Shown here: positions 8,130-58,379 of the stretch, piece by piece
How positions within the stretch are numbered: the first letter of the stretch is position 1
How the letters are laid out: each line of letters starts with the position of its first letter
Source: Thermoflexus sp.
GTDB taxonomy: Bacteria > Chloroflexota > Anaerolineae > Aggregatilineales > Aggregatilineaceae
Direction: 5' to 3'
DNA length: 64,000 nucleotides
Assembly: GCA_020724465.1 (NCBI GenBank)
Contig: DYGX01000006.1
Span: 193,603-257,602 of the forward strand
The notes under the pieces: model-generated
What the model saw: only the letters and a program-made list of their open reading frames with translations
Databases searched by the model: none
What the model was told of the DNA's origin: nothing
Made by a program: the position numbers and the translations under genes

Positions 8130-8324
8130 CAGGTCAACCATCCTTGTGTGGTGCGAGAACGGCGCTCTCTGATGATACACGCGAGGGCGCTCCGGCGCAT
8201 ATGCGGGTCCGGGCCCCGGACAGCAAAAAAACAGCGCGTGACAGCCCCACGCAGCCCGGAACTTGCAGGCTGTACCTCGCTGTTTTTGCTGCTTTTGGTG
8301 GTTGTAGCCGATCCTGGCGGGTCT

Positions 8325-8861
8325 TTAACTCTCCGCGACGCGTACGAAGGCGTTGCGCACGATAAACAGCAGGTCCTCAAAAGCCTCGTCGCTGACCGGC
8401 GCGGCCCCGTCCGCCGCGATCGCGTCGATCTCGACCACCGTCGCGCCCTCGCGCAGCAGGGCATAGCGCACCCGGTCGGTCTGTGCCACATCCGCTGTCA
8501 CGCGCTGCGGAGCGCGGTTGCGGTCCAGCGTCAGCCCCTGAAGCTGAAGCTCGCGCAGGCGGCGGGCGGCGGCGACCTCGGCGGCGTCGTCGGTGGGGTG
8601 GACCTCGATCACGATGTACGCGATGGCCTCATCCGGCCCTTCATAGAGCAGGGTGACATGGCCGGTATTCAGCACGGTGCTGGAGCGCAGACGGACAGTC
8701 TGCCGGTCATCGCGCTCCCAGTCGTTGTACTCCAGCGGCATAAAACTGGCGAATTTGTCCGCCATGGCGCGGGGCGCGGCACCGCAGGCACTCAAGGCCA
8801 CGCTCGTCAGCAGCAGAACCGCCAGCAGCCCGGACAGCACCCACACACGCTTGGTCATCAT
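8325..8861 (-). CDS. Putative lipoprotein of unknown function
   Basis: A 178-residue protein with a textbook lipoprotein signal: MMTKR, a hydrophobic stretch of about 17 residues, then LSAC with Cys26 as the lipidation site. The mature part is acidic and mixed alpha/beta, with no family I recognise. The start at 8861 is preceded by GGGGAG at a good distance; the frame extends further upstream but only by overlapping livF. It lies 13 bases after the livF stop on the same strand, so it is the last gene of the branched-chain amino-acid transporter operon. The context suggests an outer-surface accessory, but no function can be given. Confidence 0.72.
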   Translation of the reverse strand: MMTKRVWVLSGLLAVLLLTSVALSACGAAPRAMADKFASFMPLEYNDWERDDRQTVRLRSSTVLNTGHVTLLYEGPDEAIAYIVIEVHPTDDAAEVAAARRLRELQLQGLTLDRNRAPQRVTADVAQTDRVRYALLREGATVVEIDAIAADGAAPVSDEAFEDLLFIVRNAFVRVAES

Positions 8862-38376: not shown

Positions 38377-39552
38377 ATGACCCTACCAACGCAGATCTCC
38401 GACCTCACCCCGGCCGAACGCCAGCGCTATGCCCGCCACCTGATCCTGCCGCAGGTGGGCGAAGAGGGGCAGCGGAAGCTCAAGCAGGCGCGCGTGCTGA
38501 TCATCGGCACGGGCGGCCTGGGCAGCCCCGCGGCACTCTACCTGGCCGCAGCAGGGATCGGCCACCTGGGGCTGGTCGATTATGATGTGGTGGATGTCAG
38601 CAATCTCCAGCGGCAGGTCATTCACGGCGAGAGCACCCTCGGCGTGCCCAAGGTCGAGTCCGCGGCGCGGCGGCTGCGCGACCTCAACCGGCACGTGACG
38701 GTCGAGGCGCATCACGAGCCGCTCACCCGTCACAACGCGCTGGACATCATCGCCCGCTACGACGTGGTGGTCGACGGGACGGACAACTTCCCGACGCGCT
38801 ACCTGGCTAACGATGCCTGCGTGATGTTGGGCAAGCCGCTGGTCTACGGCAGCGTCTTCCGCTTCGAGGGGCAGGCCAGCGTCTTCGGGCTGAAAGACGG
38901 GCCGTGCTACCGCTGCCTGCTGCCGGAGCCACCCCCGCCGGACAGCGTGCCGAGCTGCGCCGAAGCGGGCGTGCTGGGGGTGCTGCCCGGCACAATCGGC
39001 ACAATCCAGGCGACCGAGGCGCTCAAGCTGGTCCTGGGTGTGGGGGAGCCGCTGGTCGGGCGGCTGCTGCTCTATGACGCGCTGGACATGACATTCGACA
39101 CCATCCGCCTGCCCAAACGCGCAAACTGCCCGGTCTGCGGTGAGCACCCCACCATCACCGAGCTGATCGACTACGAGGCGTTCTGCGGCGTGCCGGGCCA
39201 CCCGCCCATCGACCCGCCTGCCGCCGATCCCCTCGCGCCCGAACTGGCCCCGCGCCAGATCAAGGCCCGGCTGGATGCAGGCGAACCATTGCTGCTACTC
39301 GACGTGCGCGAGCCGTTCGAGCTTCAGTTCAGCCGGATTGATGGGGCGCTCAACATCCCCATGAGTCAGATGGCGGAGCGGTGGAGCGAGATCCCGCGCG
39401 ACCGCCCGGTCGTGGTCTTCTGCCACACGGGGGTGCGCAGCGCCAACCTGATCGACGCGCTGCGCGAGGTGGGTTACACCAATCTGATCAATCTGACGGG
39501 CGGCATCGACGCCTGGTCGCGCGAGGTGGACCCCAGCGTCCCGCGCTATTGA
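38377..39552 (+). CDS. MoeB-type adenylyltransferase fused to rhodanese (MOCS3-like)
   Basis: A 391-residue fusion. Residues about 1-260 are MoeB: GTGGLGSPAALYLAAAGIG, LVDYDVVDVSNLQRQVIHG, CYRC and CPVC zinc pairs, and catalytic loop PSCAEAGVLGVLPG (Cys194). Residues 285-391 are a rhodanese with LLLLDVREPFE and active-site CHTGVRS (Cys349). Such enzymes adenylate and thiocarboxylate ThiS/MoaD-type sulfur carriers. The ATG at 38377 is the family-consistent start; an upstream frame from 38236 is unsupported. It is divergent from the E1/E2/JAB operon, so two E1-like proteins lie within 3.5 kb. It converges with the STAND ATPase gene. Confidence 0.92.
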   Translation: MTLPTQISDLTPAERQRYARHLILPQVGEEGQRKLKQARVLIIGTGGLGSPAALYLAAAGIGHLGLVDYDVVDVSNLQRQVIHGESTLGVPKVESAARRLRDLNRHVTVEAHHEPLTRHNALDIIARYDVVVDGTDNFPTRYLANDACVMLGKPLVYGSVFRFEGQASVFGLKDGPCYRCLLPEPPPPDSVPSCAEAGVLGVLPGTIGTIQATEALKLVLGVGEPLVGRLLLYDALDMTFDTIRLPKRANCPVCGEHPTITELIDYEAFCGVPGHPPIDPPAADPLAPELAPRQIKARLDAGEPLLLLDVREPFELQFSRIDGALNIPMSQMAERWSEIPRDRPVVVFCHTGVRSANLIDALREVGYTNLINLTGGIDAWSREVDPSVPRY

Positions 39553-39564
39553 GTCAGGGGCGGT

Positions 39565-39655
39565 GAAAAGCAGTGAAGAGCAGCGAGAGACAGCTACGCG
39601 AAGCGGGATATCCGCCGGTCGTAGCTGTCTCCGTTTTCCACGCGCTCGCCGCTTT
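39565..39655. repeat. Inverted repeat with decamer-like elements at a convergent gene junction
   Basis: Perfect 12-base arms GAGACAGCTACG (39587-39598) and CGTAGCTGTCTC (39620-39631) enclose 21 bases. The left flank has GAAAAGCAGTGAAGAGCAGC, related in reverse complement to the GCTGTTCTT decamers at 52691 and 58301. It could act as a bidirectional terminator between the MoeB-rhodanese and STAND genes. Confidence 0.65.
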
Positions 39656-42315
39656 TAGCCGCCCTCGTCCAGCGCCGCCTGGGCATAGTCGCGCAGGTTA
39701 TCTTCCGGCAGCATCAGCGTCACGCCCGCATTGGTCAGGCGCTCCTGGCGGGTCTTGGCGCGGCTGAGCAGGCGGCGCGCCTCGGTATCATCCGGCAGCC
39801 GCTCGACCGCCGCCTCAAGAAGCTGAACCACGCGGTTCAACTGGACCGTGTCGTGCATCAACATGCGCGCCAGCGCCAGCATACTGGTGCCGATCGCTTC
39901 CTGGTCGTCCAGTTCAAAGGCCAGATGCAACGCGTGACGGTAGGCCGACTGCGCGCCCGCGTAATCGCCGCTTTCTTCCAGGACGCTGCCCAGCCGCGAG
40001 AGAACCGCGAACGTCTGCGCCTGATCGCCGGCGGCGCGGGCCAGCGCGACCGCCCGGCGATATGCCCGGCGCGCTGCCAGCCAGTCCAGCTGGGCCGCGT
40101 GCGCCTCGCCGAGCTTGTCCAGCGCCTGGCCAAGCAGATCCATGCGCTCCACGCGCTCGAAAATCGGGACGGCCTGATCCAGCACGGCGATCGCGTCCGG
40201 GATGCGGCCGGCTTCGAGGTACAGCTCGCCGAGCCTGTCCAGCGCCTGGCCGATCTCAAGCCAGGCTTCGCCCGGCCGCAAGGCGCGGATCGCCTCTTGA
40301 AACGCCATTTCGGCGCCTTCGGTCCGCCCAAGCTGCATCTGCAACTCGCCCAGCAGGATCAGCAGCTTGCCCTCGCGCTGCGGGTCGTCCAGCTCTTCGG
40401 CCAGCGCCATCCCGCGATCGACATAGTCGAGCACGCCCTGATAATCGGCCCGCTCCAGGCTGAGCGCGGCCAGCGCCTCAAGGGCGGCCAGCTCGTCGGA
40501 GATGTCGCCATTGGCGTGAAAGGCGTCCGCCGCCTGGACGTAATACTCGATGGCGTGCTCGGTGTCATGCGCCTCGGCGGCGCGCTGCGCCAGCTCGCGC
40601 AGCCGGGACGGATCATCCGCCGCAGCGAGAGCCTCGGCAGCAGGAGCGGGCTGCTCTTCCGGCATCGAAGGCGGCGCCGCCGGTCCCGGCGGTACGGCTG
40701 GCTCCGGCGCCGGTTCTTCATGCCACTCCTCGACCGGCTCGCTGGCGGCTTGTTCCAGCACGGCGGTCAGATCGTCGATCGCGGCGTCGGCCTCGTCGAG
40801 CGGCTCCAGATCGGCCGAGTAGTCCGGCCCGGCAGGGACGGTGTCCTGCTCGCCCCACTCTGAATCTGCGGCCAGTTCCGCCCCGGCTGGCGGAGTCGCT
40901 TCGGGTTCCGCTGCGGCCTCAGCCTCCGGCCCGGCTTCCCCGGCGGGGAGCGCATCTTCGGAGGGCGAAGCGAGCGGCGGGGCAGGCTGCTCGGGTTCCG
41001 GCTCGTCCAGTTCCTCGTCCTCAATCGGCTCGTCGGCCCAGGCCAGCAGCGGGACGCTGGCCGCCTGCGGCTCGTCCACCAGATGCCACAGCCATTTCAG
41101 CTCGATGGTGAAGCCGCGGGCGCTGGCGAAATCATCCGAGTGAGACGGGTCCAACCGCAGGACCAGCTCCTCAAGCTGTTCGGTGCGGCCGTGGCGGGCT
41201 GCATAGCGCGCGGCAGCCAGCACCGATCCCATCTCGGCGGCCAGCCGGTCGTGATTGGCGGCTTCGTTGGTGCCGGTCTGACGCTTGACATAGCGCACCA
41301 GGCCGTCCAGATGCCGCGCCCGGATGGCCTCAAGCTGGTTTTTGCGGTGCAGGAAAGCCTTGGCGAAATGGCGCACCAGCTCGTGCGCCGTGTAATACGG
41401 CTCGCCGTAGACGGTAGTGCTCACCGCGAAGCCGCGTTTCACCAACTGGCGTAGCGCGGGGCGCAGCGTTTCGGCAGGTGTCTCGGCCACATCCGCCAGC
41501 AGCGCCTCGCTCGCGCCGGCGCCAAAGGTCGTGCCCAGCAGCAGAACGGTACCCTGCAGCGCGGGCGGCAGCAGGCGATAGGACGCCATGATGATCCCCA
41601 GCATACGGTTGACTGCGCCGCGCGGCAGGTCGGGCAGCCGCGCCCGGAACTCGTCCGGCGAGATGCCCGCCGTCGCCAGCGCCCGCCCGGCCACCACGAT
41701 CCCCAGCGGATAGCCGCCGGTAGCCTCGGCCACCCGGTTGATCTCGCTCACGTCTGCGTCGACATCCGGCCCGGAGACCAGGATCAGCAGCGCTTCGGCA
41801 TCGTCCCGGCTCAGCGGCCCGACGCTGTGCGGAGTCCACGGCCCGCGCCCCCGGTGCGAGTGTGTCAGCAAAACCGGCAGATCGGCGGCGCAGTGTTCCA
41901 CAAAGGCGCGTGCCGCCGACAGGTTGACCACGCCGTCGAACACGATCAGGGGGCGGTGATCGTGCAGCAGGTCACGCACGGTCGCGATCTGTGCGTCCCG
42001 GTCGCTGTCCGGCTGGAGCGCCACGCCATAGGCGCGCGCCGTGCGGGCCAGCAGCGAGCGCAGCGAGTCCTCGGCAAGCTCCAGCCACAGCACCCCCCCG
42101 TCGGAGCCGGTACGCTCGGCGGCGACGGTCGCAGCCAGCGCAGATTTGCCGCTGCCCGGCGCGCCATGCAGCAGCAGCGCCCGGTTGGCTTTCAGCGCCA
42201 GGTGCACCGCCGCCAGATCGGCATCGCGGCCTAAGATCAACTCAGGCGGGCGCACGGGCAGGTGATCTGGATCGCGCAACGGCGCGTCGTGGGGGACAAC
42301 AGACGGTTGGCTCAT
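39655..42315 (-). CDS. STAND/NB-ARC NTPase with TPR repeats
   Basis: An 886-residue cytoplasmic signalling-type NTPase. The P-loop is GAPGSGKS at residues 51-58, Walker B is LIVFDG with Asp127, and ATGGYPLGIVVAG is the STAND GxP motif. A winged-helix-like segment follows near residues 300-345. Residues 430-580 are an acidic Glu/Pro/Ala linker. The last 300 residues are TPRs (for example GEAWLEIGQALDRLGELYLEAGR). STAND proteins act as switches that oligomerise when the sensor repeats bind a trigger. No effector domain is visible at the N-terminus, so the output is unknown. It stands alone on its strand. Confidence 0.85.
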   Translation of the reverse strand: MSQPSVVPHDAPLRDPDHLPVRPPELILGRDADLAAVHLALKANRALLLHGAPGSGKSALAATVAAERTGSDGGVLWLELAEDSLRSLLARTARAYGVALQPDSDRDAQIATVRDLLHDHRPLIVFDGVVNLSAARAFVEHCAADLPVLLTHSHRGRGPWTPHSVGPLSRDDAEALLILVSGPDVDADVSEINRVAEATGGYPLGIVVAGRALATAGISPDEFRARLPDLPRGAVNRMLGIIMASYRLLPPALQGTVLLLGTTFGAGASEALLADVAETPAETLRPALRQLVKRGFAVSTTVYGEPYYTAHELVRHFAKAFLHRKNQLEAIRARHLDGLVRYVKRQTGTNEAANHDRLAAEMGSVLAAARYAARHGRTEQLEELVLRLDPSHSDDFASARGFTIELKWLWHLVDEPQAASVPLLAWADEPIEDEELDEPEPEQPAPPLASPSEDALPAGEAGPEAEAAAEPEATPPAGAELAADSEWGEQDTVPAGPDYSADLEPLDEADAAIDDLTAVLEQAASEPVEEWHEEPAPEPAVPPGPAAPPSMPEEQPAPAAEALAAADDPSRLRELAQRAAEAHDTEHAIEYYVQAADAFHANGDISDELAALEALAALSLERADYQGVLDYVDRGMALAEELDDPQREGKLLILLGELQMQLGRTEGAEMAFQEAIRALRPGEAWLEIGQALDRLGELYLEAGRIPDAIAVLDQAVPIFERVERMDLLGQALDKLGEAHAAQLDWLAARRAYRRAVALARAAGDQAQTFAVLSRLGSVLEESGDYAGAQSAYRHALHLAFELDDQEAIGTSMLALARMLMHDTVQLNRVVQLLEAAVERLPDDTEARRLLSRAKTRQERLTNAGVTLMLPEDNLRDYAQAALDEGG

Positions 42316-48883: not shown

Positions 48884-51592
48884 ATGCCAGTGAGCAAGAG
48901 CAAGCTAGTCATCGTTGAATCGCCGACCAAAGCCCGCACCATCCGCGGCTATCTGCCCAAGGAGTACCGCGTCGAGGCCAGCATGGGGCACGTGCGCGAC
49001 CTGCCCGCCTCGGCCAGCGAGATCCCCAGCAAGCTGAAGGATCAGGAGTGGGCACGGCTGGGCGTCAATGTCGAGGCAGGCTTCGAGCCGCTCTACGTCA
49101 TCCCGCGCGACAAGAAACCGGTCGTCAAGGAGTTGAAGGCGGCGCTCAAAGACGCTGAAGAAGTCATCCTGGCGACGGACGAGGACCGCGAGGGCGAAAG
49201 CATCGCCTGGCATCTGGTTCAGGTGCTCGAGCCGAAAGTGCCGGTCAAGCGGATGGTCTTCCACGAGATCACGCGCGAGGCGATTCAGGATGCGCTCAAG
49301 CACTGCCGCGCCATCGACAACAAGCTGGTCACCGCGCAGGAAACGCGCCGCATCCTTGATCGGCTGGTCGGCTACACCATCTCGCCGCTGCTGTGGAAGA
49401 AGATCGCGCCGGGGCTGTCGGCGGGGCGCGTGCAGTCGGCGGCGGTCCGGCTGCTGGTCCTGCGCGAGCAGGAGCGCCGCACCTTCAAATCCGGCACCTA
49501 TTGGGACCTCAAAGCGACGCTGGCCGCCGGTCCGGAGACGTTCACCGCCGGGCTGGTCGCGCTGGGCGGCGTGCGCGTGGCGACGAGCAAAGACTTCGAC
49601 GACAAAACGGGAACCATCCCTAAGGGGCGCAAGGTCGTCTTGCTCGACGAAGCGCGCGCCAAAGAGCTGGCCGCCCGTCTGATCAAGGGCGAGTGGCGCG
49701 TGGCCGAGGTCAGCGAGCGCGACCAGGAACGCTCGCCCGCGCCGCCGTTCACCACCTCGACGCTGCAGCAGGAAGCCAACCGCAAGCTCGGCATGAGCGC
49801 CAAGCAGACGATGAGCGTGGCGCAGAAGCTCTATGAGCAGGGGTTGATCACCTATATGCGCACCGACTCGGTGCACCTGTCGAAGCAGGCGCTGGCCGCG
49901 CTGCGCCAGTGCGTGCGCGACAAGTACGGCGACGACTATCTGCACCCCACGCCGCGCCAGTACCGCACGCGGGCCAAAGGCGCGCAGGAAGCCCACGAGG
50001 CGATCCGCCCCGCCGGGCACAAGATGCCCACCGCCGACGAGCTGGGCCTGACCGGGCAGGAATACGCGCTCTACGACCTGATCTGGAAGCGCGCCATCGC
50101 CACGCAGATGGCCGACGCGCGCCTGCGCCTGAGCACGGTCAGCATCACCGTCGACGACGCGGAGTTCCGCGCGTCCGGGCGGCGCGTGCTGTTCCCCGGA
50201 TTCTTCCGCGCCTACGTCGAGGGTGCGGACGACCCGGCAGCCGCTCTTGACGATCAAGAGATGATCCTGCCGCCGCTGACGACCGGGCAGGTGCTCGACT
50301 GCCGCGCGGTCGAGCCGCAGGGCCACGAAACCAGCCCGCCACCGCGCTACACCGACGCGACGCTGGTCAGGGCGCTCGAAAGCGAGGGGATTGGCCGCCC
50401 CAGCACCTACGCCACCATCATCAGCACCATCCAGGAGCGCGGCTATGTGGTCAAGAGCGGCAAGCAGCTCATCCCGACCTTCACCGCGTTCTCGGTCAAC
50501 GCGCTGATGGAGCAGCACTTCCCCGAGCTGGTGGATACCAGGTTCACCGCGCAGATGGAGCAGGTGCTGGACGAGATCGCCGAGGGCAGCGCGGATAGCC
50601 AGCCCTATCTCAACGCGTTCTTCCTCGGCGAAAGCGGCCTGGCTCGGCAGGTCAGGGCCAAGGAGCAGGCCATTAACCCGCGCGACGTCCACGCGCTGGT
50701 ACTCGACGAGCTGAACGCCCGCGTGCGCATTGGCCGCTATGGCGCGTATCTGGAGCAGGAGCAGAACGGCAGCACGGTGCGCGTCTCGCTGCCCGATTCA
50801 ATCGCCCCTGCCGAACTGACGACCCAGCAGGCGGAGCAGCTTCTGCGCCAGAAGGAAAACGGCCCGCAGCCGCTCGGCTATCACCCGGAGACCGGCGAGC
50901 CGATCTTTGTGCTGGTCGGCCCCTATGGGCCGTATATCCAGCAGGGCGAAAACGGCGAGAACGGCGGCGCGGGCAGCGCCCGCAAACCGGCGCGCGTCTC
51001 GCTGCCGAAGGGAACGCGCCCCGAGTCGGTGTCGTTCGAGCAGGCGCTGGCCCTGCTCAGCCTGCCGCGCACGCTCGGCCAGCACCCCGAAACCGGCGCG
51101 CCGATTGAGGCCGGCATCGGGCGCTTCGGCCCATATGTGCGCCACCAGGGAACCTACCGCTCGCTCAGAGACGACGATGTGCTGACCATCACGCTCGATC
51201 GCGCCCTGGCGCTGCTGGCGGAAGAGAAGCGGTCGCGACGGGCCACCACGCCCCTTAGAGAGCTGGGCCAGCATCCCGACGACGGCGAGCCGGTCGCGGT
51301 CTACGACGGGCGCTACGGCCCCTTCGTCAAACACGGCAAGACCAACGCCTCGCTACCGAAGGGGATGGACGCCAGCGCGATCACGCTGGAGCAGGCAGTG
51401 GCGCTGCTGGCGGAAAAGGCGAGCAAGCCCGCCGCCAGGCGCCGGGCGAACAGCCGGAAGCCGGGCGACACGCAGTCTGACGGCAAATCGACCGGCAAGC
51501 GATCGACCACGAGCCGCACGACCACAAAGAAAACGTCGACCAAGAAGACGACACGCAAGCAGTCGAGCAGCCGCAAATCCACCCAAGAGTAG
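48884..51592 (+). CDS. topA: DNA topoisomerase I
   Basis: A 902-residue type IA topoisomerase. The TOPRIM domain opens with [18 protein letters not shown] and carries the Mg-binding [16 protein letters not shown]. The active-site Tyr is in [11 protein letters not shown] (about residue 324), and the [19 protein letters not shown] block is present. The C-terminus has no zinc fingers. Instead it has about four TOPRIM-C repeats (GxHPxxGxPIxVxxGxxGPYVxxG) and a Lys/Thr/Ser-rich basic tail. It relaxes negative supercoils. The ATG at 48884 is used; GTG at 48881 or 48890 are alternatives. Confidence 0.95.
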
Positions 51593-51677
51593 CGGCGATG
51601 CGCAATGCGGTGAGAGAACAAGAGGCGCCCCCGGCTTCGGAGCGCGCCCTGACGAGCCTGCGCTGCGAGGTTCCGTG

Positions 51678-52592
51678 ATGGGCATTCTCCGTGTTGCGCT
51701 GCTACAGATGACCGCTCACGGCAGCGATCAGGACGCCAACCGCACTAAAGGCGACGCGTTCTGCCGCCTGGCCGCGCAGATGGGCGCGGACATTGCGCTC
51801 TTCCCTGAGATGTGGAACACCGGCTACACGCCGTTCTGCGATCATCCGTGGTCGCCCAACTTTCATCCCGACGATCCAGCGTATGAGGCGATGCGGCGCG
51901 ACCTGCGCGAGATGGCGATTGGGCTGGATAGCGCGTTCGTGCTGCATTTTCGCCAACTGGCGCGCGAGCTGAACATGGCGATCGGCCTGACCTATCTGGA
52001 GCGGTGGGAGCCATCTCCACGCAACACAATCGCGCTGATCGACCGTCACGGCGAGATCGCGCTGACCTACGCCAAGGTCCACACCTGCGAGTTCGACGTG
52101 GAGGCGCTGCTCACACCCGGCGAGGCGTTTCCCGTGGCGACCCTAGATACCACGCAGGGACCGGTACGCGTCGGGGCGATGATCTGCTTCGACCGCGAGT
52201 TCCCCGAGACGGCGCGCCTGCTGATGCTTAACGGGGCGGAGCTGATCCTCGTGCCGAACTGCTGCCCCATGGAGATCAACCGGCTGTCACAGCTTCGAGC
52301 GCGCGCCTACGAGAACATGACCGCGATCGCGCTGGCGAACTACGCCGGGCTGGGACACTCCGTCGCGTATGACGGCGTGGCGTTCGCTGACGACGAGCGC
52401 TCGCTCGACATGACCGTCGTCGAAGCAGGCACCGCCGAAGGCGTCTACCTCGCGCCGATCGATTTGGACCGGCTGCGCGCCTACCGCGCGAGCGAGGTCC
52501 ACGGGAACGCGTTTCGCCGCCCGCGCCTCTACGGACCGCTGATCAGCGAAGAAGTGTCGGAGCCATTCGTCCGGAAGCTTGCGCGGCGCTAG
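51678..52592 (+). CDS. Carbon-nitrogen hydrolase (nitrilase superfamily)
   Basis: A 304-residue protein. The Glu of the EKC triad is in ALFPEMWNTGYT, the Lys in LTYAKVHTCEFDVE and the Cys in GAMICFDREFPETARLL. The fold matches amidases such as N-carbamoyl-D-amino-acid or N-carbamoylputrescine hydrolases. The ATG at 51678 follows GAGG by seven bases; a GTG at 51675 is equivalent. It lies 85 bases behind topA. The substrate is unknown. Confidence 0.9.
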   Translation: MGILRVALLQMTAHGSDQDANRTKGDAFCRLAAQMGADIALFPEMWNTGYTPFCDHPWSPNFHPDDPAYEAMRRDLREMAIGLDSAFVLHFRQLARELNMAIGLTYLERWEPSPRNTIALIDRHGEIALTYAKVHTCEFDVEALLTPGEAFPVATLDTTQGPVRVGAMICFDREFPETARLLMLNGAELILVPNCCPMEINRLSQLRARAYENMTAIALANYAGLGHSVAYDGVAFADDERSLDMTVVEAGTAEGVYLAPIDLDRLRAYRASEVHGNAFRRPRLYGPLISEEVSEPFVRKLARR

Positions 52593-52627
52593 CGCGCGAG
52601 GAAGCCGGGAATGGGCAGCAGGTAAGA

Positions 52628-52651
52628 ACGGGCCACGCATGCGTGGCCCGT
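52628..52651. repeat. 24-base perfect palindrome after the nitrilase gene
   Basis: ACGGGCCACGCA is followed immediately by its reverse complement, with no loop, 35 bases after the nitrilase stop. In RNA it would form a strong hairpin only with a small loop opened at the centre. It could act as a terminator for the plus-strand gene or bind a dimeric protein. Confidence 0.6.
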
Positions 52652-52680
52652 ACGATTCCGCTGATTTTCGCTTGATTTTC

Positions 52681-52750
52681 GCTGCCTTTAGCTGCTTTAT
52701 CGCTGTTCTTCGCTGTTCTTCGCTGTTCTTGGCTGCTTTTTGCCGTTCTT
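52681..52750. repeat. Tandem decamer repeats (CGCTGTTCTT family)
   Basis: Three exact CGCTGTTCTT units at 52701-52730 are flanked by degenerate units (GCTGCCTTTA and GCTGCTTTAT before; GGCTGCTTTT and TGCCGTTCTT after). The array fills the gap between the nitrilase gene and the convergent permease gene, ending 13 bases from its stop. The same units recur at 58301-58370. Confidence 0.75.
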
Positions 52751-52762
52751 CACCGCTCCCTG

Positions 52763-53854
52763 CTAGCCCTTGACCGAACCGGCCATCAGCCCCCGGATGA
52801 AATAGCGGCCCAGGAAGATATAGACCGCCAGCGTCGGCAGCGCAGCCAGCACTGCGCCAGCCATCGGCAGGTTCCACTTGACCGCCTCGCCGCCCGCCAG
52901 CAGCGCCAGCGCAACCGTGATCGGCTGCGACGCCTGGTTGGTCAGCGTGACGGCAAAGAGGAATTCGTTCCAGATCTGCGTGAACTGCCAGATGATCACG
53001 ACCACGAAGCCCGGCAGCGAGAGCGGGAACACGATCCAGCGGTAGATGCCGAAGAATCCGGCCCCGTCGATGGCGCCCGCCTCGATCAGATCGGTCGGGA
53101 CCTCGACGTAATAGTTGCGGAAGATCAGCGTTGTGATCGGCAGGCCATAGACAACGTGGGCCATGATCAACCCGATCAGCGAACCGCCCAGGTTGACGTT
53201 CTGCATGAACTGGAACAGCGGGATCAGGATACTCTGGTACGGGATGAACATCCCAAACAGCATCAGCGGAAAGACGACGTTCGCCCCCGGAAAGCGCCAC
53301 TTGGACAGCACATAGCCGTTCATCGACCCCATCATCGCCGAGATAATCGTCGCCGAGATAGTCAGCACAAAGCTGTTGCGCAGCTTGGGGCCGAGCATAT
53401 CCAGCGCCTCGCGGTAGCTGGCCCAGTTGATCGTCTGCGGCGGCCGCCAGACCTGGTTGAGCTGCCCGGCGGCATCGGGTGTTTTCAGGCTCGTCATCAC
53501 GACCGTGTAGACCGGCATCAGAAAGACGAGCACCATCGCGATCAGGAACAGGTAGATCAGGGGGCGGACCAGCTTGCCAGGCTGAAATGGCAGGCGGCGC
53601 GGCTCCGGTCGCCTGGCGAGGGCCGTCGCCAGCCCCACCGTCCCGGCGGGCACTCGCGCCGGCTGCGGACCGCGCCAGGCCAGATAGGCCCACAGCGGAA
53701 CGAGCAGCACCAGGTTCCCCACCGCGCCGATCAGCGCCCCGATCAGCGCGCCCACCTGCGCGTCGCGGCGCAGATAGTCGTAGAGAAGATAGGTGCCCAG
53801 GCTGCCAACCAGCGTGCCGAAAATTACCCAGTTGACGATCTGCGTCATCGCCAT
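52763..53854 (-). CDS. CUT1-family sugar ABC permease (MalG-like) with N-terminal extension
   Basis: A 363-residue permease. The C-terminal 280 residues are a MalG-type permease with [20 protein letters not shown] as the EAA loop and the [13 protein letters not shown] tail. The first 80 residues add hydrophobic segments ([19 protein letters not shown] and [20 protein letters not shown]). The start at 53854 follows AGGGGG by six bases; a longer frame to 53923 overlaps the gene upstream. It partners the permease encoded at 53865-55217. Confidence 0.9.
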
Positions 53855-57185: not shown

Positions 57186-58250
57186 ATGAGCATCGACCTC
57201 ATCCTGCGGCTCGCCGGGATGATGATTTTCGCTTTGCTCGGGGCCATGCTGGGCACCGAGCTATCCGATGCCTTGCTGCTGCCCCCCGAAGCGACCGGCC
57301 TGATCTTCGCGCTGACCGGCGCGCTCGGCGGCCTGATCATCACCCCCTGGCTCACCACCTACCCCGCCCGCCTGGGCAAGCGCGCGCTGCAACGGATGCC
57401 CGTCGAGAACCTGGTCATGTCGGTCGCGGGCCTGCTGGCCGGGCTGCTGGCGGCGGCACTGCTTGCCTGGCCGCTCTCGCTGCTGCCCAGTCCCTTCGGC
57501 CAACTGCTGCCCACGCTAAGCGCGATCGCGCTGATCTACGCGGGCGTGACCGCCGCTACCGCTCGCGCCCAGGACGTTCTGGCGCTGTTCGGCGTGACGG
57601 CCGACCGGCGTCCCGCCCGGCGCTGGGTGCCTGCCTCGGAACCGGCCAATGATATCCTGCTCGACACCAGCGTGATCATCGACGGGCGCATCCTCGACAT
57701 CAGCCAGACCGGCTTTTTGCAGGGACGTCTGCTGATCCCCCGCTTTGTGCTGCACGAGCTGCAGCATGTGGCCGACTCGGCGGATGTGCTGCGCCGCAAC
57801 CGGGGCAAGCGCGGTCTGGAGATCCTCAGCGAGCTGCAGCAAGTCAGTCTGGCGCCGGTCGAGATCATCGACGACGACGTCGAAGGCGTGGACGAGGTGG
57901 ACGAGAAGCTCGTCACCCTGGCGCGGCGGCGCGGCATCCCGGTCATGACGCAGGACTTCAACCTCAACCGCGTGGCCGAGCTGCAGGGCGTGACCGTGCT
58001 GAATATCAACGCGCTGTCCAACGCGCTCAAGGCGATCTACCTGCCGGGCGAGGTGATCGATATCCACATCGTCATGGAAGGGCGCGAGCCTGGCCAGGGC
58101 GTCGGCTACCTCGACGACGGGACGATGGTCGTCGTCGAGGACGGCCAGCAATATCTGGACCGCACGATCCGCGTGCTGATCACGCGTTACATCGTGACCA
58201 ACGCGGGCCGGATGTATTTCGCGCAGTTGGAAGGCTCGCCCAAAACGTAG
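57186..58250 (+). CDS. PIN-TRAM domain membrane protein (YacL-like)
   Basis: A 354-residue protein. Three or four N-terminal membrane segments (LRLAGMMIFALLGAMLG, LIFALTGALGGLIITP, VAGLLAGLLAAALLAWPL) are followed by a PIN nuclease domain with ILLDTSVIIDGRILDI, acidic DVEGVDEVDEKL and MTQDFNLN. A C-terminal TRAM domain has GYLDDGTMVVVEDG. This is the architecture of YacL in Bacillus, near cysS and rlmB there too. The start at 57186 has GGGGAGG 12 bases upstream. It may cut RNA at the membrane. It converges with the deaminase gene. Confidence 0.88.
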   Translation: MSIDLILRLAGMMIFALLGAMLGTELSDALLLPPEATGLIFALTGALGGLIITPWLTTYPARLGKRALQRMPVENLVMSVAGLLAGLLAAALLAWPLSLLPSPFGQLLPTLSAIALIYAGVTAATARAQDVLALFGVTADRRPARRWVPASEPANDILLDTSVIIDGRILDISQTGFLQGRLLIPRFVLHELQHVADSADVLRRNRGKRGLEILSELQQVSLAPVEIIDDDVEGVDEVDEKLVTLARRRGIPVMTQDFNLNRVAELQGVTVLNINALSNALKAIYLPGEVIDIHIVMEGREPGQGVGYLDDGTMVVVEDGQQYLDRTIRVLITRYIVTNAGRMYFAQLEGSPKT

Positions 58251-58252
58251 CC

Positions 58253-58370
58253 AAGAGCAGCGAAAGGCAGCTAACATCGGACAAGGGGAACACCGCCCTT
58301 CGCTGTTCCTCGCTGTTCTTGGCTGTTCTTGGCTGTTCTTGGCTGCTCTTGGCTGCTCTTGGCTGTTCTT
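58253..58370. repeat. Inverted and tandem decamer repeats (GGCTGTTCTT family)
   Basis: Seven units of ten bases run from 58301 to 58370: CGCTGTTCCT, CGCTGTTCTT, GGCTGTTCTT twice, GGCTGCTCTT twice and GGCTGTTCTT. A reverse-oriented arm CCAAGAGCAGCGAAAGGCAG lies just before at 58251-58270. The element fills the 129-base gap between the convergent PIN-TRAM and deaminase genes and could fold into a long hairpin. Confidence 0.78.
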
Positions 58371-58379
58371 CGCTTCCCA

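Follow-up and report, generated by a model that had tools for sequence, protein, structure and literature searches.

The decamer array that lies between a nitrilase-family gene and an ABC transporter permease gene in the 64,000-nucleotide stretch of Thermoflexus sp. DNA analyzed here (the window) is a lopsided, one-armed member of a family of long imperfect palindromes and carries a GC-rich hairpin on its inner side. The family is a genus-specific variant of extragenic palindromes, made of inverted decamer arrays at gene ends. A sequence-only reading of the window had pictured this array and another near position 58301 as two isolated repeats; both in fact belong to the genus-wide family. In two species (the host genome, G000, and its congener G001), the two arms of an element are established to be less alike than arms taken from different loci. 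We suggest, with a probability of about 0.45, that the elements are bidirectional, terminator-like hairpins at gene 3' ends which grow by tandem duplication, and that the removal of DNA hairpins with longer perfect stems, perhaps through SbcCD, keeps their arms unlike.

The focal array and its neighbors in the window

The focal gap is convergent, as the sequence-only reading had it, with the nitrilase-family gene (51675 to 52592, plus strand; Pfam CN_hydrolase, PF00795) on its 5' side and the permease gene (52763 to 53854, minus strand; Pfam BPD_transp_1, PF00528) on the other, the permease stop codon abutting the array. A periodic profile together with Tandem Repeats Finder places the array, the right arm of its element, at 52660 to 52764 on the plus strand; the latter program reports it as overlapping arrays at 52659 to 52740, 52691 to 52751, and 52700 to 52751. 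The three exact CGCTGTTCTT units picked out in that reading stand at 52701 to 52730 (plus strand). The claim that the array ends 13 bases from the permease stop is right for base 52750, but degenerate units run on to the stop codon itself. The greater AT richness reported for the array also holds, its GC content being 0.486 at 52681 to 52750 versus 0.672 at 52593 to 52659 and 0.669 in the whole window. The A/G-rich strand of the array is the one that would be read in the permease transcript, if the array is transcribed.

The profile score of the focal array is 45.6, compared with a maximum of 13.2 among 300 dinucleotide shuffles of the gap, and the decamer with at most one mismatch occurs 21 times in the window versus 3.2 expected, a count reached by none of 100 shuffles. 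A chance origin of the repeats was rejected on the basis of shuffles of the gap and of the window, reversed-pattern controls, and counts of a 24-base motif. On the inner side of the array lies a perfect 24-bp palindrome, ACGGGCCACGCATGCGTGGCCCGT (52628 to 52651), a GC-rich hairpin that forms the core hairpin in the folds of both strands; the sole trace of a left arm is one weak, subthreshold unit-like match (52619 to 52629, minus strand; profile score, 7.7). Folding of the whole gap was no better than that of shuffles for the plus strand (z = −0.59) and moderately better for the minus strand (z = −2.78), which counts against reading the focal element as a 3'-end hairpin. At gathering thresholds, Rfam yielded no match within the window.

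The array near 58301 has the same unit in the same orientation as the focal one, as the sequence-only reading had observed. It occupies 58298 to 58374 (plus strand; profile score, 62.1) between a PIN-domain gene and an amidohydrolase gene, both assigned by Pfam, and is a right arm with a short inverse left arm at 58249 to 58285 (minus strand; profile score, 14.6); its gap folds as a hairpin (z = −5.66). A weak third array (8269 to 8326, plus strand; profile score, 16.4) is a single arm adjoining a stop codon. In the convergent gap at 39552 to 39670, the flanks of a hairpin resemble the decamer (GTGAAAAGCAGTGAAGAGCAGCGAGAGACAGCTACG and its inverse) at a level under the array threshold.

The genes at the focal locus differ between species. 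In G001 and G002, the other two genomes of the genus, the permease gene comes next after a topoisomerase I gene, with no nitrilase gene between them; a nitrilase in that place (51585 to 52592) is found in G000 alone, and at 1e−60 no nitrilase match was obtained in G001 or in G002 (which is 73% complete). The best matches of the nitrilase, at 66% identity, are to Sphaerobacter and Chloroflexi MAGs, and the 2- to 4-kb loci of nitrilase homologs in three further genomes (G003, G004, and G007) have neither the topoisomerase nor the permease of the focal locus. The nitrilase gene was thus either gained in G000 or lost in the other two genomes. The array is present at the permease end in G001, with units that differ from those in G000, so the focal array goes with the permease end rather than with the nitrilase gene. 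In the focal gap of G002, no array was found above the profile threshold. A hairpin 3' of the topoisomerase gene has a T-run in G001 and is without one in G000.

A family of inverted decamer arrays at gene ends

The host genome carries about 170 elements by extrapolation, built from the degenerate decamer NGCTGYYYTT and located at gene 3' ends, a number derived from 18 elements in an unbiased sample of 464 kb (contig C4, 100 kb of contig C10, and the window). Arms were called with the periodic profile and, outside the window, genes were called by codon usage. At a profile score of at least 15, the unbiased sample contains 27 arms, which group into the 18 elements, versus 3 for the reversed control, all of them inside true arrays; at a score of at least 25, the counts are 19 and 0. 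The stretches from G001 and G002, and a second and third set from G000, were picked for containing arrays; two stretches (L214 and L259) were omitted, as they overlap others.

With up to three mismatches, a pattern of two units has 132 matches in the host genome and none for the reversed control. Of 61 genomes searched for two successive units, allowing up to two mismatches, the three that belong to the genus gave 170, 141, and 45 matches and the remaining 58 gave 0 to 3 each, with any match at all in 15; the reversed control matched once each in 6 of the 61. A 24-base pattern with at most one mismatch occurs 420 times in the host genome and once across 395 other genomes of the class; G001 and G002 were outside that draw and, searched separately with up to two mismatches, gave 440 and 147 matches. 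No arm was found in 264 kb from three sister genera. Among the genomes searched, these gene-end elements are thus confined to one genus.

In its usual form, an element is an inverted pair of decamer arrays with either a small loop or a GC-rich hairpin between them, and some one-armed elements have such a hairpin on their inner side. The decamer is not self-complementary; the palindrome is made by the two facing arrays. Adjacent arm pairs in the three species have the minus arm on the left and the plus arm on the right in 87 of 87 cases, and in the first 29 pairs the arms measure 40 to 155 bp, with a loop of 0 to 24 bp in 25. In two gaps folded as examples, the structure was far more stable than in shuffled sequence (z = −5.66 and −9.07). 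Some arms contain higher-order repeats, with alternating 20-bp units and a unit of about 50 bp (L141, 16140 to 16292; L146, 18104 to 18236), which look like signs of recent tandem amplification.

The elements sit at stop codons. Among 49 elements, 46 of 62 stop-facing edges overlap the stop codon or are at most 5 bp away from it, compared with 1 of 36 start-facing edges; the unbiased sample alone gives 15 of 21 and 0 of 15. Seventeen of the elements are in convergent gaps, 28 in tandem gaps, and 4 in divergent gaps, so that 45 of the 49 are downstream of genes; the four between divergently called genes, in whose gaps no tRNA genes were found, count against a reading tied to gene 3' ends. That the repeats are coding was rejected: in the unbiased sample, every one of the 27 arms is intergenic, and 2 of 52 arms in the targeted sample fall inside called genes (L201 and L202). 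Some elements lie 3' of a separate T-run hairpin, as at 85898 to 86176 of contig C10, implying that the decamer array is not always the terminator.

The spacing between GCTG cores is exactly 10 bp in 408 of at least 441 spacings, and the core is 96 to 99% conserved across units, a figure inflated because unit extraction demands a GCTG-like core. Strict spacing, a constant core next to a variable spacer, and an orientation fixed toward the element center would all suit a decamer that is the binding site of a recognizing protein, for example, one acting as a polar roadblock to RNA polymerase. We consider such a role distinctly unlikely, as ten-base spacing follows equally from tandem duplication and the core conservation is in part a product of extraction.

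Persistence of place and turnover of units

Element places persist between species, and the decamer units turn over fast in place. In 29 orthologous gaps of G000 and G001, with flanks that are on average 93.8 and 94.5% identical, arms are present in both species, and yet 45 of the 51 shared arms differ in length by at least 8 bp (median, 24 bp). Since the G001 stretches were picked for arrays, the reverse mapping into the unbiased G000 sample is the fairer test: of 47 G001 elements, 13 (at 12 sites) map into that sample, and 13 of 13 coincide with a G000 array. Six gaps were comparable between G000 and the more distant G002 (flanks, about 83% identical); G002 is without an arm in one of them, and the shared arms differ in length in six of eight cases. 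The C content of orthologous left and right arms correlates poorly at position 6 of the decamer (r = 0.11 and 0.14, respectively), better at position 7 (0.22 and 0.48), and well at position 8 (0.66 and 0.71). Two G001 contigs (C294 and C122) end in one common element (L166, 5449 to 5491, and L258, 1 to 39; in G000, C4, 281421 to 281483), and such breaks suggest that the most perfect palindromes may be missing from the assemblies.

Dispersed, palindromic copies at gene ends would also be expected of a mobile REP- or MITE-like element spread by a Y1 (RAYT-like) transposase, and Y1_Tnp matches are present in the genus (three in G000 and one each in G001 and G002). Presence and absence could be compared with G002, which has an arm in five of the six gaps and none in the focal gap. 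We nevertheless regard mobility as highly improbable: all 13 G001 elements that could be placed in the unbiased G000 sample stand at the identical place there, Y1_Tnp is not genus specific (20 of 21 genomes searched), and the arms vary widely in length and end at stop codons without fixed termini.

Polymerase slippage, which the sequence-only reading had proposed, gains support, as between species, from the length differences of orthologous arms and from the higher-order repeats. Taken alone, it leaves unexplained the fixed inverted order, the location at stop codons, and the unlikeness of the arms. The stronger proposition, that the arrays are neutral, functionless slippage debris persisting in intergenic DNA, draws on the same fast length change and higher-order repeats and is in our judgment very unlikely, as it does not lead one to expect the inverted order, the stop-codon location, the shared positions, or the anticorrelation between arms described below.

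Unlikeness of the two arms

The comparison of arms within a locus gave a result opposite to expectation: an element's own arms pair worse than arms swapped between loci. Across eight variants of the test on 29 pairs, own duplex energies were worse than swapped ones (z = +1.9 to +4.7). The longest perfect Watson-Crick stem averaged 10.0 bp in own pairs versus 12.7 bp in swapped pairs in G000 (39 pairs; 0 of 4,000 permutations) and 10.5 versus 12.5 bp in G001 (31 pairs; P = 0.00075), P values here and below being nominal per test with several variants of the arm test run; in G002, the difference was not significant (9.3 versus 9.6 bp; 13 pairs; P = 0.35). Pairs with an arm shorter than 30 bp were removed beforehand (0 of 39, 2 of 33, and 2 of 15 in G000, G001, and G002, respectively), and one further G000 pair, which had too few units, was excluded from the position 6 correction and the facing-unit test described below. 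Because assemblies break at some palindromes, the test was repeated with stems restricted to less than 15 bp; own stems were still shorter (P = 0.0005 in G000 and 0.01 in G001), so short-read loss of long perfect palindromes is not the explanation.

The unlikeness is visible in the units themselves. Identical unit pairs make up 2.6% of comparisons between own arms, 7.8% between swapped arms, and 16% within one arm (29 G000 pairs). The C contents of the two arms are anticorrelated in G000 and G001, respectively, at position 6 (−0.46 and −0.52), position 7 (−0.71 and −0.55), and position 8 (−0.73 and −0.65); in G002, agreement is limited to position 8 (−0.64; P = 0.01), and position 1 has the opposite sign (+0.70). 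Unlikeness is no greater between facing units than between offset ones, which argues that the acting force works on whole arms. A replication-strand bias was set aside as the cause, since contig C24 has two convergent loci, about 19 kb from each other, with opposite arm types.

The arms might be unlike by descent, if a single founding palindrome, its arms already different, gave rise to all elements and inversions between arms have since shuffled which side carries which type. The conservation of arm type at position 8 between orthologous arms is what such a founder would leave, at certain loci, L212 and L230 among them, the two species appear to have their arm types swapped, and in G001 the effect disappears on stratification by unit class (P = 0.55). 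However, the effect outlasts the same stratification in G000 (P = 0.005), and position 6, although nearly uncorrelated between orthologous arms, is anticorrelated between the arms of an element in both species, a result that holds when positions 7 and 8 are corrected for (P = 0.002 in G000 and 0.003 in G001). We therefore consider common descent a doubtful explanation, while noting that the stratified result in G001 and the lack of significant unlikeness in G002 count against the removal of like-armed hairpins as well.

Proposed function and possible removal of like-armed hairpins

We infer from these comparisons that the elements may act as bidirectional 3'-end hairpins, which would assist transcription termination or protect the 3' ends of mRNAs. 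A transcript of either strand would contain A/G-rich units, then the loop, and then U/C-rich units. The length of the arms would change through tandem duplication and deletion, and where the arms became too alike, the DNA could form a hairpin with an uninterrupted stem long enough for cleavage or deletion, brought about by an SbcCD-type nuclease or by replication slippage. The survivors would be elements that have the GCTG clamp in common between the arms and differ in the pyrimidine spacer. More tentatively, the family may offer a genome-wide natural experiment in hairpin tolerance, in which arms able to match are held apart and the longest unbroken stem seldom goes beyond about 10 to 13 bp; the common clamps and the fast-changing spacers would then balance the usefulness of a hairpin in RNA against its proneness to deletion in DNA. 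The stem ceiling lies near the minimum stem for SbcCD cleavage, which a REP survey cites as 8 to 16 bp (PMC3733652). The SbcD family is matched above the cutoff in G000 and G002, and in G001 by two fragments below it; Rho was found in all three genomes of the genus.

The constraint could instead act on RNA, if RNase III, which is encoded in all three genomes, cut transcripts with long perfect stems. In G000 and G001, own pairs fall short of swapped pairs in stems that tolerate G·U pairs just as they do in strict stems, so the comparison does not point to DNA in particular; the REP survey names resistance to endoribonucleases among the possible reasons for unlike pairs (PMC3733652). On the other hand, among 36 tandem loci (one of 37 was dropped), differences in the transcribed strand are more often of the G·U than of the A·C kind (1.04 versus 0.81; 25 of 36 loci; P = 0.005, with orthologs counted twice), the reverse of what avoidance of RNA duplexes would produce. 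This measure amounts to a lower C content of the 3' arm, and tandem loci in all three genomes indeed have less C in the 3' arm than in the 5' arm, in the decamer sense; when the measure is split into inner and outer halves, the outer halves in G001 are not significant (P = 0.09). We consider an RNA-level constraint unlikely.

Relation to known repeats

As described in the survey (PMC3733652), REP and BIME sequences of the GTAG and CGTC superfamilies resemble the decamer family in being repeated extragenic palindromes that mostly lie downstream of genes, in convergent or unidirectional gaps, in having neighboring inverted units able to form larger hairpins, and in the preference of most families for unlike pairs (heterodimers). 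REPs are, however, palindromes of 20 to 40 bp tagged by GTAG or CGTC (PMC3733652), whereas the unit here is a nonpalindromic decamer repeated in tandem into the arms described above, and its consensus contains neither GTAG nor CGTC, GTAG arising in a few units through variation. The survey presents the preference for unlike REP pairs as having no obvious explanation and suggests escape from SbcCD or endoribonucleases (PMC3733652). The decamer family makes that suggestion testable in numbers: each genome has many loci, turnover is fast, the arms are anticorrelated alike in two species, and perfect stem length has a measurable ceiling. The unlikeness of its arms bears on how cells tolerate palindromes.

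Intrinsic (Rho-independent) terminators likewise have a hairpin straight after the stop codon and a U-rich 3' side; the decamer arms are far longer and T-rich, many copies are apparently without a clear T-run, and the termination role is putative. The TAACTGA repeats of marine Beggiatoaceae are comparable in being short tandem units that are restricted to a lineage and occur at numerous intergenic sites; unlike the inverted decamer arrays, they are heptamers and are reported to be nearly all direct (PMC4679880). Rapid change in tandem copy number, here seen between two species, recalls minisatellites and VNTRs, from which the decamer loci differ by having two inverted arrays at gene ends with anticorrelated compositions. 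Word searches of the open-access literature found no paper describing the decamer family, which is weak evidence of novelty.

Two contigs from a viral database (39 to 41% GC) contain a regular decamer array with a similar unit (L280, L281, and L282). A viral origin of the family was rejected: an exact pattern scan of viral contigs returned these three stretches, and BLAST matched none of them to the host stretches compared. A separate palindromic family with CCCTCTCCC-like arms occupies gaps in another genome, G006 (L220, 11488 to 11662; L222, 9675 to 9963), and one gap on contig C4 of the host genome (L131, 11824 to 11948) has a sequence similar to those gaps.
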